From a virus, in the IMG/VR virus record IMGVR_UViG_3300021960_000179, positions 1 through 40,819 of that record: 40,819 nucleotides of DNA, one strand, 5' to 3'. Shown one piece after another: positions 1-40,819 of the stretch. The notes under the pieces are model-generated. The model worked only from the letters and a program-made list of their open reading frames with translations, ran no database searches and was not told the DNA's origin. Positions within the stretch are counted from its first letter, which is position 1, and each line of letters begins with the position of its first letter. A program made the position numbers and the translations under genes.

Positions 1-51
1 AAAACCGGGTGCAAAATTAAGTTTAGATAACCGAGAAGAAGAACTTGCCAT
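1..51 (-). CDS. Tail nozzle/stabilisation-type protein, N-terminus only (cut by window edge)
   Basis: An ATG at position 51 opens a frame that runs off the left edge after 17 codons. It reads MASSSSRLSKLNFAPGF. The stretch KLNFAPGF is typical, from memory, of the first residues of P22 gp10-like tail stabilisation proteins in marine podoviruses. It starts six bases after the stop of the PP-loop gene, so it is the next gene of that operon. The equivalent protein of the main genome (29560-31026) begins with an unrelated sequence, which supports the view that the left 3.2 kb comes from a different phage. The function rests on 17 residues only. Confidence 0.45.
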   Translation of the reverse strand, partial: MASSSSRLSKLNFAPGF

Positions 52-56
52 TTACA

Positions 57-1052
57 TTAGTCTTTCTTTAATTTAGCTGCTTCTAATATAGCTGACCAAT
101 ACTCATCACCCGTCATACCATCAGAGTTAATCCCACGATTTGAGTTAATCAGCCCCATATGACCACAGAAATCACCTAATTGTTCTTCTGTTTTTATTTC
201 ACTCATATCTATTCCATTCTTATTAAACCACTTAATTCGATTACTACTTTCAATAACACTAGGCCATTCACGACCAACCAAATCAGCGAGATAATTTCGC
301 GGCGCACACTCATCGCAGCACCCACCTCGCCAGACATATTCTGCCGGATCAGCTTCAGATCGCCACTGTCCGTAGCTGCCCTTCTCTGCACACCACAGAT
401 CGAAATCTCGGCCTGTCTTGCCGCTACTGACGTAATGATCGTAGCCACGTTGATAAGCACAACGCAGACACCAGATGTCAGTGCAGGTATTGACATCGCA
501 CGTCGTAATCAGTGACCGCAGTTCTGTTGGCAATGCTTCCAGTTGCTCAAATCTGCCCGACATTTGTGCAGCAATCGTGTCGTAATCTGCATCCGCTGCG
601 ACCGGCTCAGTAACGCTGATCGACGGCAGATACACCGCCGCGCCTGTGTCGTAGACCTGTCCGATCAAAATCGGGTGACGGTCTGTCGCGGTGTTCTCGA
701 CGCTGATGCCGATTGCTATGGCAGCAGCATTGTGTGCCGCAATCTGCGTGACGTAGTTTTCATAACGCGCCGTCGCAAATGCGTAGGTAATCTTTTTAAT
801 AAACCCTGAACGAACAGGTCGCATATCATCTGTATGGTTAATAGTAGGTAGAGAAACATATACTCTTTTAAATGTACGGATGTTTACCTCAAGCCAGTTG
901 CAGATTGCATCAAACTCTTTTTGTTCGTTTGATGCATCTTCATAGCCCTCAGCGAAATGCAACGCCACGATTTCGTGGTCTGTGTTGGAAAGACATTGGT
1001 GAAGTGAATAGGCGCTATTAACTCCACCTGATGCTGGTATCAAAATTTTCAT
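57..1052 (-). CDS. PP-loop (QueC/ExsB-like) ATP-binding protein, copy A
   Basis: This 331-residue protein begins MKILIPASGGVNSAYSLHQ. SGGVNS at residues 8-13 matches the PP-loop pyrophosphatase signature (SGGxDS type) used by QueC, TilS and PAPS reductases to adenylate a substrate. A cysteine cluster at residues 185, 190, 195 and 198 resembles the zinc site of QueC but has different spacing, and a second cluster (C245, C246, C249) follows. The start overlaps the stop of the glycine-rich adhesin gene (TAATG), so the two are probably co-translated. No other queuosine or deazaguanine gene is visible, so a role in DNA or tRNA modification is not supported by context. A close homologue lies at 21787-22773. 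The middle (about 300-780) is GC-rich and nearly identical to that copy, while both ends are AT-rich and diverged. Confidence 0.75.
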   Translation of the reverse strand: MKILIPASGGVNSAYSLHQCLSNTDHEIVALHFAEGYEDASNEQKEFDAICNWLEVNIRTFKRVYVSLPTINHTDDMRPVRSGFIKKITYAFATARYENYVTQIAAHNAAAIAIGISVENTATDRHPILIGQVYDTGAAVYLPSISVTEPVAADADYDTIAAQMSGRFEQLEALPTELRSLITTCDVNTCTDIWCLRCAYQRGYDHYVSSGKTGRDFDLWCAEKGSYGQWRSEADPAEYVWRGGCCDECAPRNYLADLVGREWPSVIESSNRIKWFNKNGIDMSEIKTEEQLGDFCGHMGLINSNRGINSDGMTGDEYWSAILEAAKLKKD

Positions 1053-1735
1053 TAACCTACAGTTCCTAAGATTGTTCCAGAATTATTAACTGTAATAGTA
1101 CGACCATTTTTACGTAATGCGTAACCGGCTGCACCTCCAGCGCCACCAGCACCGGGATATGTAATTTCACAACCGACCGCACCGCCACCAAAAGTACCAC
1201 TTGAGCCTTGTGTACCATCTTCACCAAAACCACCTGCTGCTCCTGTTGAGCCGTAAGAGCCATAGATGATAGGACCGCCACATTCACTTTTACCTACAAA
1301 CTCATAACGTGACCCACGATTTCCGCCACCGCCTCCACCGCCACCGCCTGATCTAACGCTCGCGCCTGAAGCAACATTAACTACATATGAACCGCTTCCA
1401 CCTGTATTGGTTTCCCAGTAAATAGCATCACCACCTGCTGAACCGGGTACGGCTACTAGTCCACCACTAGTTCCCGTATAGCTATCAATATTTCCATTAA
1501 TATTAATTACCACATCACTGTCAGCATTTAATGCTCCTGTTCTTAGTGAGTATGTAGTTAGTCCAAGGACTGTTACACCAGAAGCAATATTAACAATGAT
1601 CTTGTTAGTACTAGTAGCTGCTACATAACCTTTTGCCTCTGCAAGCGTAAGAATATTTTGCTCAAACGTATTTGAAGTGATATCAATAACTATAGTATTC
1701 TCACTTCCAAACCACATGGAGCTAAACATAGTCAT
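1052..1735 (-). CDS. Glycine-rich tail tip adhesin-like protein, copy A
   Basis: The 227-residue product has a beta-rich N-terminal half with the phrase ITSNTFEQNILTLAEAKGY, then a run of nine glycines near residues 130-140 and a GAAGG/GGAGGAAGYAL-rich C-terminal half. Poly-glycine segments of this sort are known from receptor-binding tip proteins of tailed phages such as the T-even gp38 adhesins, although I cannot show homology. It lies directly after a fibre gene (TAATG overlap at 1735) and before the PP-loop gene (TAATG overlap at 1052). Its closest relative in the window is 22773-23459, which differs mainly in the first 16 residues. The likely role is host recognition at the virion tip. 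Confidence 0.6.
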   Translation of the reverse strand: MTMFSSMWFGSENTIVIDITSNTFEQNILTLAEAKGYVAATSTNKIIVNIASGVTVLGLTTYSLRTGALNADSDVVININGNIDSYTGTSGGLVAVPGSAGGDAIYWETNTGGSGSYVVNVASGASVRSGGGGGGGGGNRGSRYEFVGKSECGGPIIYGSYGSTGAAGGFGEDGTQGSSGTFGGGAVGCEITYPGAGGAGGAAGYALRKNGRTITVNNSGTILGTVG

Positions 1736-2652
1736 TAACTAAAAGCCAACTGAGGTATGCCAAGTAAAATTCTATTATTTGCTACAACAAAATAGGGTAC
1801 AATATCTACTGCATTTGCTGTTGTACTAAGTGTTAAACCAAGACCACCTGCTGTTTCATAATCTGTACCAAGGGTTACTGTTCGTGAACCAGTTGCGTCT
1901 TGAATAAAGGAAATAACTCCACACTGACCAACTGTCTCTGTTGAAGGATTAGTTAAAGTTATATTACCAGTAAGTGTAAGTACAAAGTTTTGTTTTGTAG
2001 CAAAGTCTAAGGTAATGTTACCTGTATTAGTAGCATCTATATCAGTATTAGCATTTACTGTACCAGCCGCAACAACATTACCACTTGTATTAAGAGTAGA
2101 TGCTGATACAGCACCTGTAAATGTAGCTCCACCACCCTGTACTTGAGTTACATCTAATATAGATGTTGTGATACTAGTAGCTACAAGAACAGATGTTGAA
2201 ATGCTTGTAGCATTAAGAGTATTAGCTGTAAAAGAAGTTACTGAGGTAGGAGAATCTATTCGATAAATGGATGTACCATTACAAGCTACAAAAGTATTTT
2301 CACCCTGCACAAGATTTAAAGCAGTTCCTCCAACAGTTTTCATCTGTACTGCAAAAGAACCTGTAGTATTCTCTCTAATAAAGTAAGTCTTTTCTTCTGA
2401 TGGAATAGTAATAGTTACATTTGCAGTAAGTGTACCAGCAAACTCTAAAGCAGCATTACGTGATTGATCTGTTGCTCCATTACTATCCGAAAGGACAATA
2501 CCTGTACTGCTTACAGAAACAATTTCATAACCAGCAATAGCATCATCTATTAGATCAATAACATTAGTATTTAGAATAGCACCCCAACTATTAGGATTTT
2601 CTCCATCAGTTTGCTTTTCTAAACCTAGTCTGTTTGTATATGTACTTGCCAT
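1735..2652 (-). CDS. Tail fibre protein of the left branch
   Basis: This 305-residue protein starts MASTYTNRLGLEKQTDGENP, followed by NSWGAILNTNVIDLIDDAIAG, a common N-terminus for short fibres of marine phages. Its remainder is Thr/Ser/Val-rich and predicted beta-structured, without the S74 chaperone. The codons are strongly AT-biased, unlike the main genome. The stop overlaps the adhesin start, and the start abuts the 66-residue gene upstream. It occupies the same slot as the 260-residue fibre at 23459-24241, which also precedes a glycine-rich adhesin and a PP-loop gene, but the two fibres differ in sequence. Confidence 0.65.
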   Translation of the reverse strand: MASTYTNRLGLEKQTDGENPNSWGAILNTNVIDLIDDAIAGYEIVSVSSTGIVLSDSNGATDQSRNAALEFAGTLTANVTITIPSEEKTYFIRENTTGSFAVQMKTVGGTALNLVQGENTFVACNGTSIYRIDSPTSVTSFTANTLNATSISTSVLVATSITTSILDVTQVQGGGATFTGAVSASTLNTSGNVVAAGTVNANTDIDATNTGNITLDFATKQNFVLTLTGNITLTNPSTETVGQCGVISFIQDATGSRTVTLGTDYETAGGLGLTLSTTANAVDIVPYFVVANNRILLGIPQLAFS

Positions 2653-2852
2653 TATACTGTCCTTCTTTTAACTTTTTCTGTACACTCTGATTGTAAAATT
2701 TGTGTGTTTGCTTCTATTGTTATTTGATTAATAACATTTGCATAGTTCATACAGTTTATAATATCAGGAAATGGTCCTGTTACAGAATGCTCTTTAATAG
2801 GTTCACCTGTAGGTAACAGTGTTATTACAATTACTGAAATATAATAAAACAT
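2652..2852 (-). CDS. Small protein with hydrophobic N-terminus
   Basis: The frame encodes 66 residues. The first 14 (MFYYISVIVITLLP) are hydrophobic and could be a signal or membrane anchor, and two cysteines follow near residues 34 and 57. It fills the gap between the fibre accessory gene and the next fibre gene exactly, with its stop overlapping the next start, which argues that it is real. No family is recognised. It has no counterpart in the main genome module. An exported or membrane-bound accessory factor is possible, but nothing shows its function. Confidence 0.45.
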   Translation of the reverse strand: MFYYISVIVITLLPTGEPIKEHSVTGPFPDIINCMNYANVINQITIEANTQILQSECTEKVKRRTV

Positions 2853-3098
2853 TTAATTAAACTGATTATCAAACTCAGTTGTGTCTACAGCAATAGCATC
2901 ATTAAAGGGTGTCATGTCTTCAGTAGTCCAGTAGTCTTTTGCCACCATAATCTTCAGATGATCTACGTTGCGCTGAATAACTGTTTCGTCATTAGCATAT
3001 GCAGTAGGGTTAGCGATGACTGCATTAATAAGATTGACTGAATCCATTGCTGCGCTATAGTGCTGTGCAATTTCTTCAGCAGTGATTTCATTTTCCAT
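2853..3098 (-). CDS. Fibre-associated small protein, copy A
   Basis: I choose the ATG at 3098, giving MENEITAEEIAQHYSAAMDS and 81 residues in all. The start overlaps the end of the S74 fibre gene by 11 bases. A close homologue (40328-40576) follows the other S74 end in the window; both share QRNVDHLKIM and a C-terminal AIAVDTTEFD. Always following an S74 fibre gene suggests a fibre assembly or capping role, but this is only positional inference. The nucleotide sequence has diverged from the other copy, with more AT here. Confidence 0.6.
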   Translation of the reverse strand: MENEITAEEIAQHYSAAMDSVNLINAVIANPTAYANDETVIQRNVDHLKIMVAKDYWTTEDMTPFNDAIAVDTTEFDNQFN

Positions 3099-5556
3099 TT
3101 TCGATTTCCTTTTTAAGTGTTGCAACTTCAGCCGACAATTCTTGTACTGCCTTGACTAGAACAGGGACAAGTTTGCCATAGCTGGCTTCTAGTTTTTCGG
3201 GGTTGTTTTTTAGAACGAGGCTGAGATAATCTTCAGCATCAGCATCGATCTGTGCTTTGTCAAGGTCTTGTGCAATAAATCCAGCTTCTTGCTCACCAAC
3301 CTTTGCACCGTCACGCATGTTCCATGTGAACTTGACGGGTTTTAGTGTGTTGATAAAGTCAATGCCAAGCGGCAGTTCTTCGATGTCTTTCTTGTCACGA
3401 CGATCTGACAGACTCGATATGGTTTGCACTTGGCAACGTAGTGTAGATATGCTGGAATTACCAAGAGTAATTTCGTTACTTACGCCAACCGAACTAGCGT
3501 CAGAGCCATTGCCTAATATTATATTGTTAGAACCAGTTGTAAGATTATCCCCTGATTGAAGTCCTAAAAATGAGTTATTTTGGCCAGTTGTTACTGCTGA
3601 CCCGGCTAAATAGCCTATTGTTGTATTTGAATTGCCTGTAGTTACTTGCTTACCAGCCTCAGGTCCAATAGCAACATTGCCGTAAACACCGTTATGGCTG
3701 TAAAGACTTTCTTTTCCTATTGCAACATTATAACCATAACTAGTAGTACCGCCAGTGCCTCTACCTGCTTGATTACCAATAAAAACACTGCTGTCTTCTA
3801 CTGTAGCGTTATAGCCAGCGTATTGACCTATAATAACATTGGAGGAAGCAGTGGTAAGACTATTACCAGCGTTCCGTCCTATAGCAACATTGCCTGATGC
3901 TGTAGTAGCGGTGTACATAGCTTCACGGCCAAGAATTATATTTCTTAGACCCGTAGTTAAGTTGTAACCAGACCAATATCCGCATCCGATATTATCAGAA
4001 GCAGCACCCTGTATTTTGCGTAGAGAAGTTGACCCTATAGCAGTATTAAAACTGCCGGTAAGTGTTCCTAGTTGTCCACTATTTGCACCAAGAAAAGTAT
4101 TATGTTCACCAGTAGAATTACTAGTTCCAGAACCACTACCTATCGCAGTATTGTAAGAGCCAGAAGTAGTATTGGTTAAACTAGATCCACCCAATGCAAT
4201 ATTGTTGTTAGCACTACCATCATCTGATACTAATGCCTGATTGCCAAGACCAATAGTGGAACTATTTGAGTTAGTTAACGCATCACTTAGCCCATTAATA
4301 TCAGTAGCACCACCACCACCAGCAGCTTCCCAACCAGCCTCTCCGTTGGCATCAACTGTAAGTACGTAATCTTCAGTTGCAGTCGAGTCTTTAACAGTGA
4401 AATTAATACCGGGGATGCGTAACTTCGTTACGTTATTATCACCGAGTGTAACTTCGTTCGACGCTGAAGCTGAACTTGGCATTGCTTGGTAACCGAGCGA
4501 CGTACAGTTGACTCCGGTCGTGGTTAAAATGCCAGATTCATACCCTAGACTGGTATTCTTTGAGCCGGTCGTGATATGTCGGCCAGAAAGACGCCCGATA
4601 TTTGTGCATAGACTCGCTGTGGTTGCTGCAACTAATGATTGCTCGCCAACGCCCGTATTGCTACTGCCGGTACTTATTGCTGCGCCTGAATCCTTGCCGA
4701 TTATGACGTTATATACACAGCCCGTATGCAACCACATTGCACGTCGGCCAATCGCGACATTTGACGCGGTGCTACCCGTTTGGTTTACGCCGTAACCTGC
4801 ACTATGGCCGATAAACGTGTTGTCAAACGGGTCATTTCCTGCGCCATTGCCTTTTGTGCCACCACCGGCATCAGCGCCAATCGCTGTATTACGTCCGCCA
4901 TCAAGGGCTGCGGTCGCTGCAGCGAGTGCGCCAGAGCCTATGCCGTAGGTGCTTGTCCCAAGTTTTTTGGCATCAGACAAACCATCAATATCAGATGCAC
5001 CACCGCCAGCAGCAGCCTCCCACGTCATGCCGCCAGTATTGCCCGACCGGGCGGTCAAAATGTAGCCGTCGGACGGCGAGTTGCTCACCTTGAGGTTGTC
5101 TTCATCAACGACGTTGGATGCGATCACGGTCGCGCCGTCACCACTCGATGTGACCTCGCCGCTATGATTTGGGTGCGTATACGTGGTCGCAGCAGCCTGA
5201 AAAGTTGGCGCACTGCCGCTACCATTTGAGGTCAAAACCTGCCCACTTGTGCCAACAGCGGTGGCACCTATCGCAGAGGTCCCGTTGCCGAAGAGAACGC
5301 CATTCGCTGTCAGCGTCGATGCGCCCGTGCCACCGTCCGCGACTGCTAGGTCAGTGATGCCCGTAATGCTGCCGCCGTCAATGTTGACGCTCGATAACGC
5401 CACCGTGCCAGATACCACGTCCGCCGTGTGCGCGAGTACAGTGCGCAGCGCATCATTGATGTTCGACGGGACACAATTTTCATCAATGTCGATACCACCG
5501 ATATCGGTGTTTGACGCGGCAGTCGCAGAATAATCGTTCCAATTATTTTTAGCCAT
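3088..5556 (-). CDS. Large tail fibre with beta-roll repeats and C-terminal S74 autoprotease chaperone
   Basis: This 822-residue fibre has a short N-terminal anchor region followed by LAVADGGTGASTL, a usual fibre spacer. Two blocks of NTAIG/NVAIG/NTFIG-type repeats follow (roughly residues 205-375 and 430-700), as in YadA-head-like left-handed beta-rolls. The C-terminus, from SDRRDKKDI to the end, is a peptidase S74 intramolecular chaperone, which trimerises the fibre and then cleaves itself off; the serine and lysine of that motif fit the usual Ser-Lys dyad. A long helix ends the protein. The first half is GC-rich and the second beta-roll block (about 3480-4330) is AT-rich, so the gene is mosaic. 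It follows the portal gene by eight bases. Because of the 127-bp repeat inside it, this gene may join copy A or the right-end copy. Confidence 0.85.
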   Translation of the reverse strand: MAKNNWNDYSATAASNTDIGGIDIDENCVPSNINDALRTVLAHTADVVSGTVALSSVNIDGGSITGITDLAVADGGTGASTLTANGVLFGNGTSAIGATAVGTSGQVLTSNGSGSAPTFQAAATTYTHPNHSGEVTSSGDGATVIASNVVDEDNLKVSNSPSDGYILTARSGNTGGMTWEAAAGGGASDIDGLSDAKKLGTSTYGIGSGALAAATAALDGGRNTAIGADAGGGTKGNGAGNDPFDNTFIGHSAGYGVNQTGSTASNVAIGRRAMWLHTGCVYNVIIGKDSGAAISTGSSNTGVGEQSLVAATTASLCTNIGRLSGRHITTGSKNTSLGYESGILTTTGVNCTSLGYQAMPSSASASNEVTLGDNNVTKLRIPGINFTVKDSTATEDYVLTVDANGEAGWEAAGGGGATDINGLSDALTNSNSSTIGLGNQALVSDDGSANNNIALGGSSLTNTTSGSYNTAIGSGSGTSNSTGEHNTFLGANSGQLGTLTGSFNTAIGSTSLRKIQGAASDNIGCGYWSGYNLTTGLRNIILGREAMYTATTASGNVAIGRNAGNSLTTASSNVIIGQYAGYNATVEDSSVFIGNQAGRGTGGTTSYGYNVAIGKESLYSHNGVYGNVAIGPEAGKQVTTGNSNTTIGYLAGSAVTTGQNNSFLGLQSGDNLTTGSNNIILGNGSDASSVGVSNEITLGNSSISTLRCQVQTISSLSDRRDKKDIEELPLGIDFINTLKPVKFTWNMRDGAKVGEQEAGFIAQDLDKAQIDADAEDYLSLVLKNNPEKLEASYGKLVPVLVKAVQELSAEVATLKKEIENGK
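3215..3341. repeat. 127-bp direct repeat, internal copy
   Basis: This stretch inside the S74 domain is identical to the last 127 bases of the window. Just outside it (3214 versus 40692) the sequences differ, and they remain only similar from there on. An exact 127-bp match at a contig end is what a k=127 assembly leaves where two paths merge. Confidence 0.9.
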
Positions 5557-20231: not shown

Positions 20232-20648
20232 TCAATCTATATCGTTGAAAAATTCATGGTGGCCGATGCGGCCAACACCGATCTTCCCCTCGGACCAATC
20301 AGGCGTCAGGCCAACCACATGGTAATGACAAGAGCCGCTCGTGTTGTCCTCGTGCTTACCAAGGGTGACCGATAGGGCCGTCCAGATGCACTCGACGAAC
20401 ATTTCATTGTCTGCGTCGAGCCGCAGCATTTTGTATCGATTTGGATCGTTCTCGTTCCAGCATGAGAACTGCCACGGCTTATGACAGACCTCGTGAATGG
20501 TGTTGCCCCACCAGCCGCCGCGATCAGCTCTGTTCTTGATGACATGCGCAACTGCCAGACGACCGTCTACGGTTTCGCCTCGCGCCTCGCCCCAAATCGT
20601 CCGCGCCATCGCGTCGATGTCTTTATTAATTTGGTAATCGTTATTCAT
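20232..20648 (-). CDS. SleB-type cell wall hydrolase (endolysin)
   Basis: ATG 20648 gives 138 residues; a TTG two codons upstream is also possible. The sequence holds MARTIWGEARGE (catalytic Glu of the Hydrolase_2/SleB fold), AVAHVIKNRADR, CHKPWQFSCWN, and SCHYHVVGLTPDW, all in family order. It should cleave the glycan strands of peptidoglycan. There is no signal peptide, in keeping with holin-dependent export. Confidence 0.9.
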   Translation of the reverse strand: MNNDYQINKDIDAMARTIWGEARGETVDGRLAVAHVIKNRADRGGWWGNTIHEVCHKPWQFSCWNENDPNRYKMLRLDADNEMFVECIWTALSVTLGKHEDNTSGSCHYHVVGLTPDWSEGKIGVGRIGHHEFFNDID

Positions 20649-20657
20649 GTTCAAATT

Positions 20658-21310: not shown

Positions 21311-21474
21311 CAATCGCGACCAGTCCACCGGCGAACGGTCTGACTTTCCCAGATCCTGATCGCAATCCAGATGATCGAGAACGCTGCGGCGATGTCTGGC
21401 AGCAGTGCTAACCATGACCCAAATCCCGTGCCGAGAGCGGCGGCGTCGATGACAATTTTCGTGTCAGGAGTCAT
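21310..21474 (-). CDS. Small phage holin-like protein
   Basis: A 54-residue frame starts MTPDTKIVIDAAALGTGFGS, continues with WLALLPDIAAAFSIIWIAIR, and ends IWESQTVRRWTGRD. The sequence SIIWIAIRIWESQTVRRWTG matches the usual end of small phage holins with two membrane segments (IWxxIRIYETxTVQ). The start lies inside the end of the upstream anchored protein gene, and the stop overlaps the next start (TGATG). It joins the other membrane protein of this cassette, giving two holin candidates. Confidence 0.7.
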   Translation of the reverse strand: MTPDTKIVIDAAALGTGFGSWLALLPDIAAAFSIIWIAIRIWESQTVRRWTGRD

Positions 21475-21790
21475 GCTTTTTCTCCGTTACTGGCTGACCT
21501 CGGGGGGTAATCCATTCCCAATGTTCGCCTAGCAGAACGACACAGACTGCGCCGTTCATCTTCGGCGGCGAAAGTGTGAGCATCCAAATGCCGTCGGCTG
21601 AAACACTCAGCCGAGCTAGTGGCCTGTCTTCACCGGCGGAGATGCCATATCCGCGCCAGTTTTCCCTCGGCTCGAAAAATTTCGCCTGATCTTTTTCGAC
21701 ACAGTGGATATCGTGCGCGTGGGGACTGCGCATAAAAAAAGCCGTCAAAATGACGACCAGCAAGAAAATCAGAAATGGCCGGGCCGTCAC
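21464..21790 (-). CDS. Signal-anchored small protein after PP-loop gene
   Basis: I start at GTG 21790, which overlaps the stop of the PP-loop gene (GTGA). The 108-residue product opens with a hydrophobic segment, PFLIFLLVVILTAFFM, then a soluble part with two cysteines (IHCVEKDQ and GAVCVVLLG) and GIWMLTLSPP. It should be exported or membrane-anchored with the rest in the periplasm; the cysteines could form a disulfide. It lies at the head of the lysis cassette. No family is recognised. Confidence 0.55.
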   Translation of the reverse strand: MTARPFLIFLLVVILTAFFMRSPHAHDIHCVEKDQAKFFEPRENWRGYGISAGEDRPLARLSVSADGIWMLTLSPPKMNGAVCVVLLGEHWEWITPRGQPVTEKKHDS

Positions 21791-22773
21791 AATAGTGCCG
21801 CCTCTAGGATCGCTTCCCAATACGCATCGCCGGTCATCGCATCTGAATTGACGCCTCTGTCGAGGTTAATCCGCCCCATGCGTCCGCAGAAATCACCAAG
21901 CTGTTCTTCTGTTTCGATACCGGCCATGTCAGCGCCGTTGTCAGAAAACCACGCGATCCGATTGCGTGTATCGACCACGCTGGGCCACTCGCGGCCAACC
22001 AGATCGGCTAGATAATTAAGCGGCGCACACTCGTCGCAACAGCCGCCGCGCCAAACGTATTCGGCTGGGTCCGCCGCTGATCGCCACTGACCGTAGTCGC
22101 CCTGTTCTGCACACCACAGATCGAAATCGCGGCCTGTCTGGCCGTTGCTGACGTAGTGATCGTAGCCACGCTGATATGCACATCTGAGGCAGTAAACGTC
22201 TGTGCAGCTATCGACATCGCACGTCGTGATCAGCGACCGCAGACCTGTCGGCAGTGCTTCAAGCTGCTCGAACCGGCCCGACATTTGTGCGGCGATTGTG
22301 TGGTAATCCGCATCTGCTGCGACCGGATCAGTGACGCTGATACTCGGTAGATAGACCGCCGCGCCTGTGTCGTAGACCTGATCGATCAGGATCGGGTGTC
22401 GGTCTGTCGCGGTGTTTTCGACGCTGATGCCGATTGCTATGGCAGCAGCATTGTGTGCCGCAATCTGTGTGACGTAATTTTCGTACCGCGCCGCCGCAAA
22501 CGCATAGGTGATGTCTTTTGCAAACCCTGATCGAACCGGGCGCATATCGTCTGCGTGGTTGATCGACGGCAGGGTTACATAGGAACGCTGAAACGTGCGC
22601 ACATTTGCCGACAGCCAATCGCATATCGCGTCGAACTCGGTGCGTTCGTTCGGAGCGCCGTCGTAGCCCTCAGTGAAATGTAACGCGACAATTTCGTGGT
22701 CTGTGTTTGAGAGAAACTGATGCAGAGCGTATGCGCTGTTCACGCCACCGGATGCGGGTATTAAAATTTTCAT
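21787..22773 (-). CDS. PP-loop (QueC/ExsB-like) ATP-binding protein, copy B
   Basis: The 328-residue homologue of 57-1052 keeps the PP-loop SGGVNS, the Cys cluster CDVDSCTDVYCLRC, GISVENTATDRHP and the late CCDECAP. Its start overlaps the adhesin stop (TGATG) and its stop overlaps the anchored-protein start (GTGA), so it is coupled both ways. It sits at the junction of tail and lysis genes. All motifs needed for ATP binding and a zinc site remain, so it should be active on some nucleoside, peptide or sulfur substrate. I cannot tell which. GC content here matches the main genome throughout. Confidence 0.75.
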   Translation of the reverse strand: MKILIPASGGVNSAYALHQFLSNTDHEIVALHFTEGYDGAPNERTEFDAICDWLSANVRTFQRSYVTLPSINHADDMRPVRSGFAKDITYAFAAARYENYVTQIAAHNAAAIAIGISVENTATDRHPILIDQVYDTGAAVYLPSISVTDPVAADADYHTIAAQMSGRFEQLEALPTGLRSLITTCDVDSCTDVYCLRCAYQRGYDHYVSNGQTGRDFDLWCAEQGDYGQWRSAADPAEYVWRGGCCDECAPLNYLADLVGREWPSVVDTRNRIAWFSDNGADMAGIETEEQLGDFCGRMGRINLDRGVNSDAMTGDAYWEAILEAALL

Positions 22774-23459
22774 CAGGCTGCGCTCCCTGCAACGGTTCCA
22801 CTATTATTCAACGTCACGGATCTGCCGCTCTTCCTCAAGGCAAACCCTGCCGCACCTCCGGGACCGCCGCCGCCGGGATATGTAATTTCACATCCAATAG
22901 CCCCGCCGCTAAAAGTGCCTGTGCCACCCTGCGATCCGGCTTGGCCGAATCCTCCAGCAGCCCCGGTCGAGCCGTATGAGCCGTAGAAAATGCTCCCGAC
23001 ACATTCACTTTTACCTGCGAATTGATAGCGCGAACCCCTTTGGCCTCCACCCCCGCCACCGCCTCCGCCGCCCCGTAGATTTCCACCGGAGAGTACGTTA
23101 ACGATGTAGGTTCCGCTGCCGCCCGTCGCCGTCTCGAAGAACAGCGCATCGCCACCAGCAGAACCCGCCCCTGCCACAAGGCCACCGTTTGCTCCAGTGA
23201 AGCCATCGACACTGCCTGAGATATTTATCGTCAGGTCGCTGTTGGCGTTGATCGCGCCTGTCCGCAGCGCGTGTGTAGTCGAGCCGCTGATCGTAACGCC
23301 CGAAGCGATGTTGACGATAATTTCGGTATCGTCGGTACTCGCGTCATATCCGGCAGCGGTTGCCAGTGTCAGAATGTTTTGCTCAACAGCGTTAGACGTG
23401 ATGTCTAATGTAATCGCGCTGATTACAGCCAGATGGCCCTGAACGACCGGTAAAAGCAT
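22773..23459 (-). CDS. Glycine-rich tail tip adhesin-like protein, copy B
   Basis: The 228-residue homologue of 1052-1735 has ITSNAVEQNILTLATAAGY, a ten-glycine run, GAAGGFGQAGSQGG and PGGAAGFALRKSGRSVTLNN. The first 16 residues (MLLPVVQGHLAVISAI) differ wholly from copy A, so the joint to the virion or to the preceding fibre has been exchanged. It lies between the fibre and PP-loop genes with overlaps on both sides. The glycine-rich part probably forms loops that touch the host receptor. Confidence 0.65.
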   Translation of the reverse strand: MLLPVVQGHLAVISAITLDITSNAVEQNILTLATAAGYDASTDDTEIIVNIASGVTISGSTTHALRTGAINANSDLTINISGSVDGFTGANGGLVAGAGSAGGDALFFETATGGSGTYIVNVLSGGNLRGGGGGGGGGGQRGSRYQFAGKSECVGSIFYGSYGSTGAAGGFGQAGSQGGTGTFSGGAIGCEITYPGGGGPGGAAGFALRKSGRSVTLNNSGTVAGSAA

Positions 23460-24241
23460 TACTGCAGCGCCTTCACGGTCAGCAGCGAGAAAGTGGTCGA
23501 ACCGTCATTTATCCGCGTAATGTACAAGAAAAATTCATGCCCATTCGTAGTCGTCAGGTCGTCTCCATCTACCAAAGTGTACGAGCTTGTCGTCAGTGTT
23601 CCGGCAGAGGCGTTATTTTTATACAGCAGAACCATTGTACAATTCTTGGCCGGGACGCCTAACGTGTGAGCGCCGCCATTAATTGCCACTTGGAAATTGC
23701 CATCGTCCACGTCTGGTGTGTACGTGCCGGTAGTCTTTGTTCCTGCATCGTGAGCTGCGGCTGAATATCCCGCCGTCAACTCGTCAGCAGTATCTGCCCT
23801 CAAAATGTCTGCGTCGACAACCTCGAACACTCCGCGTGGTTGTCCATCGTTTGTCGCCGTTGGGCCGACCGCAACAGCCGTCAGAGAGGCGGATAGCGAC
23901 CCGCTGTCGAGAGTGACAGTGACCGTAGTGTTAGGTGAGCTGTAGCTCGACGAGGCGATGGTTCCATAAAGCGTCGAGCTGTCGGTCGCGCGAATGCGCC
24001 GGTTAGCGTGGTATCGCGCTGTCAGGTCTGTCGCCACCGTAAAAGTGGTTGCCGCTGTTCGCGTCGGCGTGTTGCCGAAGTCGATCCATTCGGCGTTCTC
24101 GTACCACTCGCGCACATCTGAGGCCACGCCCCGAATGAGATTATTGACGAGTGACGGGGCCATGCCTTCAGCCGCGCTGACGCCAGACAAAGAGGTATTA
24201 GAACCAGCCGTTGTCGACCAGTTTTTGATATCGGTTACCAA
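23459..24241 (-). CDS. Tail fibre protein of the main genome
   Basis: The 260-residue protein starts MVTDIKNWSTTAGSNTSLSG, then VSAAEGMAPSLVNNLIRGV and DVREWYENAEWIDFG, the common N-terminal module of virion-anchored short fibres in marine and rhizobial podoviruses. The rest is beta-rich with a C-terminal SYTLVDGDDLTTTNGHEFFLY. It ends in an overlap with the adhesin gene and starts 12 bases after the large ejection protein gene. The adhesin may cap it. Confidence 0.7.
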   Translation of the reverse strand: MVTDIKNWSTTAGSNTSLSGVSAAEGMAPSLVNNLIRGVASDVREWYENAEWIDFGNTPTRTAATTFTVATDLTARYHANRRIRATDSSTLYGTIASSSYSSPNTTVTVTLDSGSLSASLTAVAVGPTATNDGQPRGVFEVVDADILRADTADELTAGYSAAAHDAGTKTTGTYTPDVDDGNFQVAINGGAHTLGVPAKNCTMVLLYKNNASAGTLTTSSYTLVDGDDLTTTNGHEFFLYITRINDGSTTFSLLTVKALQ

Positions 24242-35654: not shown

Positions 35655-36929
35655 TTAAAACGCATCGCTGCCATCGCCATCAGGATCACCGTCATCGCTG
35701 AAATCACCCCAATCAACGCCGCCGGGGGCATCCAGCCCAGCCTGTGCCTGTGCCGCCGCCACATCAAACGCAGCCCCGAAAGCGTCAAACGCTGCGGTGG
35801 TGACTGCGTCGTTGAACCCTTCCTCATCAACGCCGCCAGAACCTCGCCCCGGCACATCGAAATCAACATCTAAATCAGGGATATTTGGATCAAACCGCAG
35901 CGGCTTGATATTATTCCGCGCGTTCGTCAGAGCGGTTCGCGCCTTGGAAATGTTGCCGTTGAATTGCTGGGTGGCTAGGTTTTGCAGGTCTTGCATGTTG
36001 CCCATCACCGAGATGTTTCCAAACGCGTCGACAAAATTTCCTTGTGCGTTGTACCCGCCGTGACCGGCAGTAAATCCGCTCAAATTCTCTCCGGTCGCAG
36101 GATCAAGTCCCGCTTGGACTGCACTCATTTTTTCAGCCGTATCGATGTCAAACCAGTCCGGCACCACGCCACTCAGCACTCGATCACCAAACAAACCCGG
36201 CGTTATTGAGAACATTTGCCCATCGATCTGTCCTGTTGAGTAACCCGGAACCCCCCGCAGCTCCATCGTTCGGTCGTAGGCCAAATTGCCCACATTTAAC
36301 TGGCCCATTTTGTTGGCTACTGCCCCCAGAACACTACTGCCAGTTAAAGAGCCAACCAAATTGGTCGGCGTGGTTGCATTGGCAATCACGTTCTCAATTG
36401 TTGTGCCAATCGGCTGATCAAAAGCATTGGACAGCGCAGAGAACATGCCGGGGTTTTGATTTGAGTACGCCGCCTGTGCATTTTGACTAGCTAGGTTCGC
36501 AGCCACTTCTGCCTGATTAGCACCGCCGATAGCGCCGAAATCCTCGACGGCGTAACTTGCCATCGCCGCCGGGTCGGTTGCCATCGACACAGGCTCATAG
36601 CCCACAGGACCGATGTCGACCGGGCCGAAATTGCCCCGGCTATATCCACCCATCGCAAAGCTCGGTGCAGTTGTCGGAAAACCCATGTTGATGGTTCGCA
36701 GAACTGTTGGCCGCGTGTTCGAAACCTGCATCGGCGCAGCCGCTGCCGGTGCCGATTGAAACGGCACAGGCGTGATAGACGCGGGAACCGCCGGAGTGAA
36801 CCCATAACCCGCGTTATACGCCACGCCAACCGGTTGCGATCCGCCTACCGGCAGCAGCGGATTGTTTGCCGCAACGGCTGCGGCATAGAGCGGATCATTT
36901 ACCGCGCCGGGGCCGTAATAATAAGCCAT
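35655..36929 (-). CDS. Low-complexity virion-associated protein
   Basis: The 424-residue protein has an Ala/Pro/Tyr-rich N-terminal half (MAYYYGPGAVNDPLYAAAVA and others), a middle with IENVIANATTPTNLVGSLTG, and an acidic Asp/Gly tail (DWGDFSDDGDPDGDGSDAF). There are no membrane segments. It shares tight gene overlap with the two effector-like proteins upstream (TAATG at 36929) and so probably belongs to the same ejected or internal set. No family is recognised. Confidence 0.5.
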   Translation of the reverse strand: MAYYYGPGAVNDPLYAAAVAANNPLLPVGGSQPVGVAYNAGYGFTPAVPASITPVPFQSAPAAAAPMQVSNTRPTVLRTINMGFPTTAPSFAMGGYSRGNFGPVDIGPVGYEPVSMATDPAAMASYAVEDFGAIGGANQAEVAANLASQNAQAAYSNQNPGMFSALSNAFDQPIGTTIENVIANATTPTNLVGSLTGSSVLGAVANKMGQLNVGNLAYDRTMELRGVPGYSTGQIDGQMFSITPGLFGDRVLSGVVPDWFDIDTAEKMSAVQAGLDPATGENLSGFTAGHGGYNAQGNFVDAFGNISVMGNMQDLQNLATQQFNGNISKARTALTNARNNIKPLRFDPNIPDLDVDFDVPGRGSGGVDEEGFNDAVTTAAFDAFGAAFDVAAAQAQAGLDAPGGVDWGDFSDDGDPDGDGSDAF

Positions 36930-38692
36930 TAAATTACGCCTCCAAGATATTGGCCAAAAAGGCCAAACCTTGCCGGTTTGTTTTGTTGTTCCTCGGTAGG
37001 AATAAGCCCCATCGGCGGTGTGCCGGGGGCCGACATGATGATGTCCTTTTCATCCACGTCACGGGTTTGCCACGGAGGAGTCGCCCTGCGCTCCTCTGGC
37101 GTCATGTTCATGCGCGTCTGTACGTTTCGCGCCTCTACCTCACCACTTAAACGATTATAGAGATCGTAATTATCGACCTCACCAATAGCTACGGCCTCAT
37201 CGTGATACTCAAGATCTTTCTCGGCTCGTTGAGCGGCGCGTAAAGACGGCGTGTTCGTTTTATCTAATTTATATCTTGCTCGGCGTAATGCGTTTTTCAG
37301 TTCTTTGGGATCTTTGTTTGCATATATGTCAAACATCGCATTGCGCGGCGTTCGACTAGCAAACCATTCACCAGCATCGGATAGCCATTTTTTCAAAGCT
37401 CTGCCGCCGTCAACGTGGCGTTTGGGCGGTGGGCCTAACTCTCGACGTATTTCACCGCTCTTCTCATACCACTGAGATTGATTAAATATCTGTTTGGGCT
37501 GAGTGATGTTCCTCATACGGCGGACATAATCCACAGCAGATAATTGTCGATACTCTTCCGCAGCCTGTCTGTTTGCGATAACAGCCTCGTCATATCGCAC
37601 CATGCTGCCATTAAAATTTTCAGTGATTTTGTTTCGCAGATGGGATGCGTATCGTTCCGGCGCTATTTGAAGATTTCCGCCCCGACCAAAACCCTCACGG
37701 TGCTGCACACCGTGTTGCAATTCGTGCAACACCACTGATCGCGCGGTTTCTGGATCTGGGCCATACGCCGTTATTCCCGGTCCCTCCGGCAGCGCACTGA
37801 TTAAAGTGCGCATCCTTTCGGCTTCGTCCTTTAGCGCGTCGATTTCTTGGTCTTGTATTTTCCGGTCGGCGTCGGTCCAATTTTTTGTAACAAATTTATC
37901 GTTACCAATGCGCTCTAACTCTTTGCGCCGCGCTTCAACCTGCATCAACTTTCGATGATAAAGGGATGGCATCTTGGGTAATGAAAGCGGCACGTCGTCA
38001 AATCGGTCGGCAAGTCTACTTAATGGGCCTAATGTACCTCTCTGTTGTAACGTCGGCTCAAACTCAGCGCGAACGCGCACGTCAGACAATTCTGGATAAG
38101 CGCCGCGTCCAAGATTGAAAAGCCCCGGAAAATCGAAAACCTCCTGAGCGCCGCCCTCAACCTGACCATAGTCGATTTCTTCAATGCCTTCGCCAAAATT
38201 AAGACGCGATTGACTGTCGTCAATTTCGAATTTCCACTTGCCGTCGACATCGTTAAACCAACCCGTCTTATTCAAGATGTCGTCGCGAGATGCTCCCTTT
38301 GCAGCCATGTCTTCGGCGATTGCTAACATGCCCTTATTCGCGGTCTCTGCTTGTGGACCTGCAAAGACCCCAAGGGTGTTGCCCTTCGGCGCTAGTCGAC
38401 CGGCTAACAAACCCGCAGGAGCAAATTCCATTGTATCGAAAAACACGTCTGCAGGGTCTGGGTTGCGAAGACCACGCATCGTCTGCCCCATGCGTATAGC
38501 CGCATTTCCTACATCGCGAACTATACCGGGAAATGCGATTTCCGGCGTTTCGTATGCGTCAAGGTCAAGCTCATCAACGTCGAGGAAATTCCTGATACGG
38601 AAAGGCAGGATCGTTGTGTAATCGTAATCAGGATTATTGAGCGGATTTTCGCTTAACAATCCCGCCGGGGCATGTGGCTGACCGTGCGGCAT
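36929..38692 (-). CDS. HExxH metallopeptidase-like polyvalent virion protein
   Basis: The 587-residue product contains SVVLHELQHGVQHREGFGRG at about residues 330-350. HELQH is a zincin HExxH motif, and the trailing EGF.RGG is known from metallopeptidase domains of phage large polyvalent proteins. N-terminal MPHGQPHAPAGLLSENPL with LDVDELD near residue 40, and the C-terminal PGTPPMGLIP and GGVI, are shared with the next protein (38692-40170), whose middle is unrelated. I infer a virion protein injected to cut host targets, with shared ends for packaging or delivery. Helices around 250-300 and 460-520 are charged. Host target unknown. Confidence 0.6.
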   Translation of the reverse strand: MPHGQPHAPAGLLSENPLNNPDYDYTTILPFRIRNFLDVDELDLDAYETPEIAFPGIVRDVGNAAIRMGQTMRGLRNPDPADVFFDTMEFAPAGLLAGRLAPKGNTLGVFAGPQAETANKGMLAIAEDMAAKGASRDDILNKTGWFNDVDGKWKFEIDDSQSRLNFGEGIEEIDYGQVEGGAQEVFDFPGLFNLGRGAYPELSDVRVRAEFEPTLQQRGTLGPLSRLADRFDDVPLSLPKMPSLYHRKLMQVEARRKELERIGNDKFVTKNWTDADRKIQDQEIDALKDEAERMRTLISALPEGPGITAYGPDPETARSVVLHELQHGVQHREGFGRGGNLQIAPERYASHLRNKITENFNGSMVRYDEAVIANRQAAEEYRQLSAVDYVRRMRNITQPKQIFNQSQWYEKSGEIRRELGPPPKRHVDGGRALKKWLSDAGEWFASRTPRNAMFDIYANKDPKELKNALRRARYKLDKTNTPSLRAAQRAEKDLEYHDEAVAIGEVDNYDLYNRLSGEVEARNVQTRMNMTPEERRATPPWQTRDVDEKDIIMSAPGTPPMGLIPTEEQQNKPARFGLFGQYLGGVI

Positions 38693-40170
38693 CAGATCAC
38701 ACCACCTGACATCCCGCTTCTAAAATTCTTCTGCAACGCCTCCTCCATCGCCATGCGCTTTCGATCTTCCATCTTTCTCAGCAAAAACTGTCGGTTCCAA
38801 CCGGCTGGTTCTCCGAGTAACCCCGTTGGCGAGTTGCTGGATGAGTCACCATCCCGCGACAGTAAGCCCATGACCGGAACGCCGGGGGCCGCTTTGAATG
38901 TTTCATCGTTGCGCTGCAGCAGCTTCATGCGTTTTAGAACCTCTTCGTCCCACGTCACATAATTACGACTGCCGGTTTCCGCGATAAAACGATCAGCTTC
39001 CTGTGGGGTGTCAAAAACCTTGTAATTTTTGGGATCGTTAAAATCGTAAACCTTCATTTTGTTATCGTTAGTGGCCGTTCGCGCCCAGCTTATCCGAGAC
39101 CCCGCGTCTAGGTATTTGAGTCCGGGAATACCGGCTCGTCCTAACTCTTTAGCGGCTTGTTCTTTCCCATCGCCATATCCCCCAAACCGGAATTTATTAA
39201 CTAACTCTGTGTGGATTTTTTCACCCGTGGGGTCGGCAGGGAGTTCTGGAAGATCCCTTTTGGGGTTATTATAAAGCGCATCTAGCAGAGCTTTGTCGTA
39301 TTCTTGTAACCCCTTCGGGTCTGCTTTATATCCAAATTTCTCAAGAGCTTTCCGCACACTCTCCGGCTGCTCACTCAGCGGCTTATCCCAGTCCAGATAA
39401 CGCGCAACTGCGTCATCCGGCAGATCGTGTTTGTAGAGATAACCCGGAGCTTTAGTGGTAATTCTGCCCCTGTTCTGTTCGATCCATTTAAGTCCAGACC
39501 GCCAACCGGCTGCATTGTCGGGGTCGTATTTGATAAAGTCTCGTGATTGGTTCAGCGCCGCGTCGATAACCTCATCTTCCGACAAATAAGGTCTGAGCCT
39601 TCGCATCGATTCAATTAGGTTGATACCGACACTGCGCGGCTCATTCAGCGTTTTATCGTCGTACTCTCGCACTAACTTACCGTCTAAAAACACATTTGAT
39701 TTGCCCTTAGCAAGTGACTGTCGGTAGTTTCCCGCGACGGCCTTCGCCTCTGCATCATAACGACCATGACCATAGGTCAACGCGCCCTCGCCGCTGCGGA
39801 TATGCTGCAAACTATCCGCTGCATCACCCGGCCCATATTTGTGGGGACTTCCTTGAAACACGTTCATTCCCAACGCACCCGCAGGGATACGGTTCAGTAA
39901 CCCCGCCGGTGAGAAGTCCAGCACGTCACCGAGTATCAACCCCGGTGGGCGTTGGCCTCGTGCCATCTGCCCCATACTTACCGCAGAGTTGCCAACATCC
40001 CGCAGCAGCCCCGGCACGGCGAGTTCCGGCATAACGTCGGTGTCGAGTTCATCGACATCCAGCGTGTTCCGCATCCGAAACGGCAAAATTGTGCTGTAGT
40101 CATAATTCGGATCATCCAGCGGGTTTTGCTGTAACAGCCCCGGCGGCGTGTGTGGTTGCCCGTGCGGCAT
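38692..40170 (-). CDS. PARP/ADP-ribosyltransferase-like polyvalent virion protein
   Basis: The 492-residue product holds VFQGSPHKYGPGDAAD, then GEGALTYGHGRYDAEAKAVA and GNY at about residues 100-150. The YGHGxY...A..Y order resembles the PARP and toxin-type ART core (FGKGIYFAD..AxxY). The expected first His is Gln in VFQG, and a later GIPGLKYLDAGSR with SRNYVTWDEE is typical of such phage domains. Its first 60 residues (MPHGQPHTPPGLLQQNPL..., LDVDELD) and last residues (PGVPVMGLL, GGVI) match the metallopeptidase-like protein, coupled by TGATG. Likely an ejected host-modifying enzyme; activity is unproved. Confidence 0.6.
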   Translation of the reverse strand: MPHGQPHTPPGLLQQNPLDDPNYDYSTILPFRMRNTLDVDELDTDVMPELAVPGLLRDVGNSAVSMGQMARGQRPPGLILGDVLDFSPAGLLNRIPAGALGMNVFQGSPHKYGPGDAADSLQHIRSGEGALTYGHGRYDAEAKAVAGNYRQSLAKGKSNVFLDGKLVREYDDKTLNEPRSVGINLIESMRRLRPYLSEDEVIDAALNQSRDFIKYDPDNAAGWRSGLKWIEQNRGRITTKAPGYLYKHDLPDDAVARYLDWDKPLSEQPESVRKALEKFGYKADPKGLQEYDKALLDALYNNPKRDLPELPADPTGEKIHTELVNKFRFGGYGDGKEQAAKELGRAGIPGLKYLDAGSRISWARTATNDNKMKVYDFNDPKNYKVFDTPQEADRFIAETGSRNYVTWDEEVLKRMKLLQRNDETFKAAPGVPVMGLLSRDGDSSSNSPTGLLGEPAGWNRQFLLRKMEDRKRMAMEEALQKNFRSGMSGGVI

Positions 40171-40327: not shown

Positions 40328-40576
40328 TCAGTCGCCGAAAAGCGCGTCAAATTCCGTCGTATCGACGGCGATGGCAGCGTTAAACGGTGACATATCTTCA
40401 GTAGTCCAAAAGTCCTGTTCGATCATAATTTTCAGATGGTCAACATTACGCTGGATAACAGTCTCGTCGCTGGTATAGGCATCAGGGTCAGCGATGACTG
40501 CGTTAATAAGATTTACGCTATCCATCGCTGCGCTGTAAGCCTGTGCAATTTCTTCAGCGGTTCTTTCGTTATCCAT
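40328..40576 (-). CDS. Fibre-associated small protein, copy B
   Basis: The 82-residue homologue of 2853-3098 starts MDNERTAEEIAQAYSAAMDS and shares QRNVDHLKIM, WTTEDM and AIAVDTTEFD with it. It overlaps the S74 gene end by eight bases and is followed by a strong terminator. In the circular form it directly follows the large fibre. The function is unknown; being kept after two S74 fibres suggests a dedicated partner. Confidence 0.6.
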   Translation of the reverse strand: MDNERTAEEIAQAYSAAMDSVNLINAVIADPDAYTSDETVIQRNVDHLKIMIEQDFWTTEDMSPFNAAIAVDTTEFDALFGD

Positions 40577-40819
40577 TTTCGATTCCCTTTTTAAGTGTTG
40601 CGACTTCAGCCGACAATTCCTGTACGGCTTTGACCAAAACAGGGACCAGTTTTCCGTAACTGGCTTCCAGTTTTTCGGGATTGTTTTTCAGCACGAGGCT
40701 GAGATAATCTTCAGCATCAGCATCGATCTGTGCTTTGTCAAGGTCTTGTGCAATAAATCCAGCTTCTTGCTCACCAACCTTTGCACCGTCACGCATGTTC
40801 CATGTGAACTTGACGGGTT
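40569..40819 (-). CDS. S74 chaperone end of a tail fibre (5' part cut by window edge)
   Basis: This frame is open to the window end and encodes the last 83 residues of a fibre: MRDGAKVGEQEAGFIAQDLD through ELSAEVATLKKGIENG. It is nearly identical in protein to the S74 end at 3088-3341 but differs at many third codon positions left of 40693. The catalytic motif would lie just beyond the edge. In the circular model, it is the end of the fibre gene whose start is at 5556. Confidence 0.85.
   Translation of the reverse strand, partial: PVKFTWNMRDGAKVGEQEAGFIAQDLDKAQIDADAEDYLSLVLKNNPEKLEASYGKLVPVLVKAVQELSAEVATLKKGIENG
40693..40819. repeat. 127-bp direct repeat, terminal copy
   Basis: Identical over 127 bases with 3215-3341 and ending exactly at the window edge. 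It marks the likely circular join of the main genome. Confidence 0.9.

Follow-up and report, generated by a model that had tools for sequence, protein, structure and literature searches.

A portable phage cassette of a predicted gp38-type tail-tip adhesin and a PP-loop protein that may modify it

Two gene pairs in the window

The DNA analysed here is a viral record of 40,819 nucleotides (IMG/VR IMGVR_UViG_3300021960_000179), referred to below as the window. As listed in Table 1, two copies of a gene pair lie on its minus strand, each consisting of a gene for a glycine-rich protein and, directly behind it, a gene for a PP-loop protein. A sequence-only reading of the window had noted this duplication, and both pairs were indeed found, each with a 1-nt overlap between the stop codon of the first gene and the start codon of the second (TAATG in the left pair, TGATG in the right pair), with the caveat that the copies likely come from two phages. 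The left and right copies were 84% identical in the PP-loop protein and 66% identical in the glycine-rich protein. The different settings described by the same reading were also confirmed: a tail nozzle gene follows the left pair, a gene for a secreted protein and, farther on, a cell-wall hydrolase gene follow the right pair, and the genes upstream differ. The nozzle gene is complete behind the left-type pair in four loci (L011, L015, L016, and L020). In the right copy, the TGA of the enzyme gene overlaps the GTG start of the secreted-protein gene, so that three genes are coupled there. The secreted protein of 108 aa is a possible third member of the cassette, and no Pfam family was found for it.

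Table 1. Positions of the two gene pairs and of associated features in the window
Feature	Position	Strand	Basis
Left adhesin, 227 aa, predicted gp38-type polyglycine-II tip protein	1052-1735	-	Foldseek matches of the homologous right copy
Left PP-loop enzyme (predicted), 331 aa	57-1052	-	ORF, intragenic mosaic
Right adhesin, 228 aa, predicted gp38-type polyglycine-II tip protein	22773-23459	-	Model pLDDT 89.8, Foldseek
Right PP-loop enzyme (predicted), 328 aa	21787-22773	-	Model pLDDT 87.6, fold search
Left adhesin loop 1	1280-1291	-	K149 codon 1289-1291, C152 codon 1280-1282; Lys covariation
Left adhesin loop 2, conserved Cys C189	1169-1171	-	Alignment
Right adhesin loop 1	23001-23012	-	K150 codon 23010-23012, C153 codon 23001-23003; Lys covariation
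Right adhesin loop 2, conserved Cys C190	22890-22892	-	Alignment
Left PP-loop motif SGGVNS, residues 8-13	1014-1031	-	Motif census
Right PP-loop motif SGGVNS, residues 8-13	22735-22752	-	Sequence
Tail nozzle gene after the left pair, first codons, cut by the record end	1-51	-	
Left upstream fibre-type gene, unlike that of the right copy	1735-2652	-	
Right upstream fibre-type gene	23459-24241	-	
Secreted protein after the right enzyme, 108 aa, signal-peptide-like N terminus	21464-21790	-	GTG start overlaps enzyme TGA
Cell-wall hydrolase, farther on from the right pair	20232-20654		
Probable point at which the assembly branches between two phages	3205-3341	.	137 bp identical to 40683-40819

When the window was compared with itself by BLAST, only two repeats were detected, namely the gene pair and the segments 2869-3341 and 40347-40819, which match at 86%. 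The 137 bp at the right end of the record are identical to the segment given in the last row of Table 1, and this exact repeat falls within a Peptidase_S74 fibre gene, in its S74 chaperone part. Furthermore, the G+C content falls from approximately 0.55 to 0.34-0.46 in the part of the window left of about 4 kb, and positions 1-3400 are 94-95% identical to independent low-G+C contigs, which matched none of the other window genes. Because of the 137-bp repeat, the fall in G+C, and the identity to the low-G+C contigs, the two copies most likely represent two phages joined at a common S74-fibre stretch, or a recent natural recombinant. On these features, the simplest reading would be that a second phage contributed 3.3 kb, which the assembler or natural recombination joined to a temperate podovirus-type genome. 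Since the copies probably come from two phages, the claim of recurrence leans on independent contigs and not on the two copies of the window. The recurrence of the pair in different settings is unweakened, being confirmed by dozens of independent contigs.

The adhesin, the PP-loop family, and their linkage

The right copy of the glycine-rich protein was modelled with AlphaFold2 and 18 relatives. Foldseek searches with this model returned gp38 of PP01 (9v85, 1.7e-7) and gp38 of S16 (6f45_D, 4.7e-5), in agreement with the earlier designation of the gene as a tip adhesin. The protein is predicted from the model to be a gp38-type polyglycine-II adhesin with a beta-helix base and a polyglycine lattice; its location at the fibre tip and its binding of a receptor are putative and were deduced from the gene position behind fibre-type genes. 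The gp38 proteins of the PP01 type are polyglycine-II tip adhesins that bind the receptor by hypervariable loops (PMC12892980). The known T2/S16/PP01-type proteins share with the present ones the beta-helix, the Gly-rich lattice, and the hypervariable recognition loops. In contrast to them, the adhesins described here carry two exposed hypervariable loops with one conserved Cys each and a loop-1 Lys that tracks the partner enzyme; they have several types of N-terminal attachment and occur mainly in nozzle-bearing (podovirus-type) phages. Their N termini are variable (MTMFSS, MLLPVV, MALQAS, and MSNFGY). At least two Cys were present in the C-terminal part of all 66 distinct adhesins, in nearly all as one aligned Cys per loop. 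The Cys pair was rejected as an enzyme-specific feature, since enzyme-less adhesins of the same clade retain both Cys. For five sequences closely related to the left copy, pN/pS was 0.99 for the adhesin loops, 0.35 for the adhesin frame, and 0.16 for the enzyme, and pN was 0.29 in the loops versus 0.023 in the frame. The enzyme is accordingly under strong purifying selection, whereas the loops change fast. The pS of the loops was raised too, and an exchange of loops by recombination is therefore likely.

The PP-loop protein was modelled from the right copy with 21 relatives. In a fold search of the PDB, 21 matches were obtained at E <= 1e-3, all of them PP-loop-type enzymes; the best folds were NcsA, TilS, TtuA, LarE, ArgG, and YcfA (E 4e-5 to approximately 1e-3, TM approximately 0.3-0.35). 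The PP-loop fold assigned to the second gene in the sequence-only reading was borne out by the model and these matches, and a HUP/Rossmann fold with an N-terminal phosphate loop is predicted for it. In BFVD, the best match was A0A0F7L8F1 from an uncultured marine virus (51% identity, TM 0.88), a member of the same family for which no function is recorded, followed by phage proteins annotated as QueC. No Pfam match was obtained for 21 members of the family, and profile-based sequence searches of the PDB returned nothing informative.

The phosphate-loop motif was SGGVNS, SGGINS, or a close variant, with SGLGTNS in one clade, and its N was present in every member read. This N aligns to the D of QueC, MnmA, and TilS, and the acidic residue of SGGxDS is absent. 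As the motif Asp is Asn throughout, catalysis may differ or be lost. Sixteen positions were invariant in 32 diverse members (in the numbering of L101: P7, G11, N13, S14, Y16, T25, R68, F70, G123, S125, E127, Q178, P183, L186, G223, and D227), and the conservation was highest in the nucleotide loop (P, G, N, S, and Y) and at R68, GxSxE, Q178, and D227. This pattern looks like a retained ligand site and would suit an enzyme rather than a scaffold. The family also has a Cys cluster with the spacing C-x4-C-x4-C-x2-C, and not the C(x)8CxxCxxC of QueC. A zinc cluster as the catalytic core is unlikely, since the Cys cluster was lost or partly lost in five members (L014, L018, L055, L073, and L077).

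The label "QueC-like", given to the second gene from its sequence, failed as a family call. No QueC (PF06508) match was found for 21 members in Pfam or for two members in NCBIfam, and QueC was absent among the best 50 PDB fold matches; together with the SGG[VI]NS motif and the wrong Cys spacing, these results led us to reject QueC membership, and what is common to both is the superfamily fold. No queuosine or deazapurine gene was recognised in the loci read, with Pfam run on part of the window genes. By motif and profile comparison, the protein is assigned to a new, undescribed PP-loop family with the signature SGG[VI]NS.

The spread of the pair was surveyed in IMG/VR with the enzyme and a growing profile and, independently, with the N-terminal domain of the adhesin only. 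Together, these searches gave 105 distinct enzymes, and the adhesin was directly upstream in 71 of them. The distance from the adhesin stop to the enzyme start was -3 to +9 in all, with the 1-nt overlap in 44/70 (start of L163 corrected). The unlinked enzymes belonged to one T4-like clade or were cut by a contig end. Seen from the adhesin, the enzyme was the next gene in 68/72, a proportion (94%) that may be too high because linked members served as seeds for finding the adhesins. Adhesins without a following enzyme were those of L066, L076, L080/L081, and L116 and later that of L197, which came from a further viral scan dominated by polyglycine-pattern matches.

Approximately 17 gene families were found behind the pair, including the secreted protein (22 loci), nozzles (10), small membrane proteins, a collar fibre, and 2OG oxygenases. 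The secreted-protein family directly follows the enzyme in its 22 distinct loci, that of the window included, often in a coupled arrangement, and is absent from many cassettes; a role in blocking the receptor (superinfection exclusion) is possible for this small signal-peptide protein. The oxygenases behind the enzyme were a PF13759 2OG-Fe(II) oxygenase in L108/L111 (3e-9) and the unrelated TauD (PF02668) 2OG-Fe(II) oxygenase in L092/L115 (3.5e-49). The cassette is portable, and its two genes stay together amid very different neighbours. The sequence-only reading had taken the two genes to act as one unit, for which the occurrence of the same pair amid so many downstream families speaks, and it had named adjacency in just two phages as a result that would refute it; with 71 linked enzymes, this outcome was absent. 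The one-unit reading stands for the linkage in tail-tip phages, but not for the lineages without the enzyme or for the T4-like clade without a neighbouring adhesin.

The carriers are uncultured, mostly marine phages. No member of the enzyme family was found among 50,697 phage records or in two pattern-based scans of 84,980 species genomes, which detect close relatives only, and these collections held no isolate phage or host carrying it. Undetected in the phage-isolate and prokaryote-genome collections searched, the family has escaped annotation. Among isolates, related adhesins occur in Limnohabitans, Sphaerotilus, and Macromonas phages and in MW202481; both the enzyme and the Cys pair are missing there, but these adhesins are too distant to serve as a close control.

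In the enzyme tree, which was midpoint-rooted and included some mosaic sequences, the T4-like members formed a single clade (100/97), and linked members occupied all other branches. One to three enzyme copies were present in each T4-like contig seen, and no adhesin match was found in the T4-like contigs carrying the enzyme, which are fragments. In the marine T4-like L162, L169, L179, L189, L191, L193, and L195, the family often occurs as two adjacent copies. These copies lie between the gene for the tail sheath stabilizer (gp15-like) and the terminase genes (gp16/gp17), accompanied by AsnB-type amidotransferases and a second PP-loop gene (SGGIDS). Beside them is also a gene with an HxHNDG motif, which could be a 2OG oxygenase.

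The loop-1 lysine and the enzyme

Every adhesin accompanied by a canonical enzyme (58/58) had a Lys at most 9 residues before the loop-1 Cys, against 0/9 of those accompanied by a diverged enzyme or none; this Lys was absent from all four adhesins with an SGLGTNS enzyme and from all five enzyme-less adhesins, L197 included. In 54 of the 58, it was the sole Lys of the loop region. The association of this Lys with the canonical enzyme gave a Fisher value of 2e-11, in which relatedness is ignored. The feature was chosen after the loop alignment had been inspected; among 140 residue-by-region tests, the Lys was the only perfect one, and the next best reached 1e-4.

In the adhesin tree, for which the loops were left out, there were three losses of the Lys and three losses or alterations of the enzyme, and they fell on the identical three branches. 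A chance coincidence of the three events, by branch length, has a probability of approximately 2e-5 before correction for the post hoc choice of the feature; the correction would multiply this value by roughly the number of features that were looked at. The independent co-changes are only three, and a sign test cannot reach 0.05 at n=3. Four linked adhesin fragments outside the discovery set (L009, L013, L158, and L170) all had the Lys. In L197 (887-1291), a stub, MKILIPFS, starts at the usual 1-nt overlap and is fused in frame to the next gene, that of the secreted protein; its sequence and position mark it as the fossil of a deleted PP-loop enzyme gene, and the adhesin of L197 has no loop-1 Lys. 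The enzymes of the SGLGTNS clade remain linked, though their adhesins are without the Lys.

Candidate functions of the cassette

We propose that the cassette encodes a tail-tip adhesin and its own maturation enzyme, which would conjugate something onto the loop-1 Lys; from the comparisons above, we give this reading a probability of about 0.5. That the PP-loop enzyme modifies the adhesin had been suggested from the sequence alone, and it is now the best-supported function, because the loop Lys tracks both the presence and the type of the enzyme. It is not set higher mainly because the motif D is replaced by N and because some lineages dispense with the enzyme; as adhesin phages without the enzyme exist, the modification would not be essential.

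In PP-loop ligases, ATP activates a carbonyl oxygen, which is then replaced by an amine or sulfur; in TilS, a lysine amine attacks the adenylated carbonyl. In the proposed pathway, the adhesin would be translated first and the PP-loop enzyme directly after it from the overlapping start codon. Inside the infected cell, the enzyme would bind a nucleotide in its SGG[VI]NS loop and activate a donor at a carbonyl or carboxyl group, which may then be attacked by the amine of the single loop-1 Lys (K149 left, K150 right). The product would be a conjugate of the amide or amidine type, placed where the tip contacts the receptor, and the virions would carry a chemically altered receptor-binding loop. 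The benefit could lie in receptor specificity, tip stability, or evasion. A fuller version has a little less than even odds: a dedicated post-translational modification system in which the new SGG[VI]NS family conjugates a small molecule to a single hypervariable-loop Lys of a gp38-type tip, the cassette spreading as a unit, sometimes along with oxygenases (PF13759 and TauD) as possible participants in its chemistry. The flanking oxygenases and the T4-like AsnB-type amidotransferases may stand for further chemistry or may be a coincidence.

The closest solved folds, TilS, NcsA/TtuA, LarE, ArgG, and YcfA, belong to ligases or sulfurtransferases with small-molecule or tRNA substrates, whereas the present family resembles them at a TM of approximately 0.3 and has the D to N change in its motif. 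Two systems are alike in that a PP-loop enzyme is encoded with a protein shown or proposed as its target. In Cap9-CdnD (type IV CBASS), the N-terminal amine of the partner is the nucleophile (PMC13279940), and QatC-QatB (qatABCD) is a second enzyme-partner pair and a likely parallel (PMC13329287). Cap9 and QatC are of the QueC family, have SGGxDS, act on an N-terminal Gly (MGGS/MGTS), and serve in defence. In contrast, the phage family has SGG[VI]NS and would have a structural role, its partner has no MG(G/T)S N terminus, and an internal loop Lys would be the acceptor. As the adhesin N termini are not conserved, deazaguanylation of the N terminus, known from CBASS, is unlikely here.

The strongest rival explanation, which we regard as improbable, is that the PP-loop protein serves as a chaperone dedicated to folding or attaching the adhesin, with the loop Lys as its docking residue. 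The order of an adhesin gene and an overlapping partner gene is that of the tail-fibre chaperones (Tfa-type), which are known in marine phages from V22 (PMC7289586) and Pam3 (PMC9608196); in Tfa, V22, and Pam3 alike, the gene lies directly behind the receptor-binding gene. A docking contact would equally account for the Lys covariation, and the catalytic-type Asp is missing from all members. However, no Pfam or PHROG chaperone family was matched and the fold is that of PP-loop proteins; unlike in the Tfa-type proteins, the nucleotide-binding loop and the active-site-like motifs are the most conserved parts, which a chaperone would not need. Moreover, tandem copies occur in T4-like phages with no adhesin nearby, some adhesins occur without the partner, and the tip of a hypervariable loop would be an odd docking site.

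The absence of the enzyme from some adhesin phages would also be accounted for if it were independent cargo at a recombination hot spot (a tRNA, nucleotide, or anti-defence enzyme) with no functional link to the adhesin. The tandem T4-like copies between gp15 and gp16/gp17, with their AsnB-type amidotransferases and another PP-loop gene, point in the same direction, as do the enzyme subfamilies swapped behind similar adhesins (L055 and L069). But cargo would not be expected always at this one position in tail-tip phages, whatever the neighbours, nor to be translationally coupled and to track one adhesin residue, and this explanation appears slightly less probable still than the chaperone.

A third alternative, to which we give about a one-in-ten weight, moves the chemistry to the receptor: the cassette and the secreted protein would alter or mask the host receptor after infection, for superinfection exclusion or progeny release, and the Lys would recognise the unmodified receptor. 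Receptor-blocking proteins are encoded beside receptor-binding genes, e.g., llp of T5, and the small secreted protein coupled downstream in 22 distinct loci resembles them. AsnB/WbpG-type sugar amidotransferases belong to the PP-loop superfamily (PMC13329287). Nevertheless, many cassettes are without the secreted protein, the PP-loop protein is cytoplasmic and has no signal peptide, and the joint loss of Lys and enzyme is not obviously predicted. Classical QueC activity, in which preQ0 or a deazapurine would be made for use in tRNA or phage DNA, is very improbable: a weak PHROG "QueC-like" match of the right copy (8e-4), QueC-annotated phage proteins among the viral fold neighbours, and a low-probability hhalign alignment to QueC of E. 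coli over 130 columns are outweighed by the lack of SGGxDS, YxQxHxxE, and C(x)8CxxCxxC and by the Pfam and PDB fold results given above, and no queuosine gene was recognised in the loci read.

With regard to the proposed modification of the adhesin, tip adhesins of this type are already known, as is the concept that a PP-loop enzyme can modify its partner. No description of the adhesin/PP-loop pair was found in the literature searched, and neither the libraries nor the literature searched yielded an account of the enzyme family, of its dedicated link to a phage tip adhesin, or of the lysine signature. The host range of a phage is usually read off the sequence of its receptor-binding protein. 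If the modification is real, the binding partner of the tip would not be predictable from its sequence alone in a widespread group of environmental phages, and the receptor-binding site would be chemically extended beyond the 20 amino acids. It would also be a third protein-modifying role of PP-loop enzymes beside Cap9 and QatC, now on the side of the virus. The loop-1 lysine offers one concrete residue at which the modification can be tested.

Two further observations were made in the window. The left PP-loop gene is a mosaic: codons 81-240 have a GC3 of 0.47-0.68 and 80-88% nucleotide identity to the right copy, and the flanks of this segment mostly have a GC3 of approximately 0.3 and 66-72% nucleotide identity. 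At 36929-40170, two adjacent genes encode proteins of 587 and 492 aa with a similar start (MPHGQPH...); the two appear to be paralogs of the polyvalent virion protein type and may be injected.
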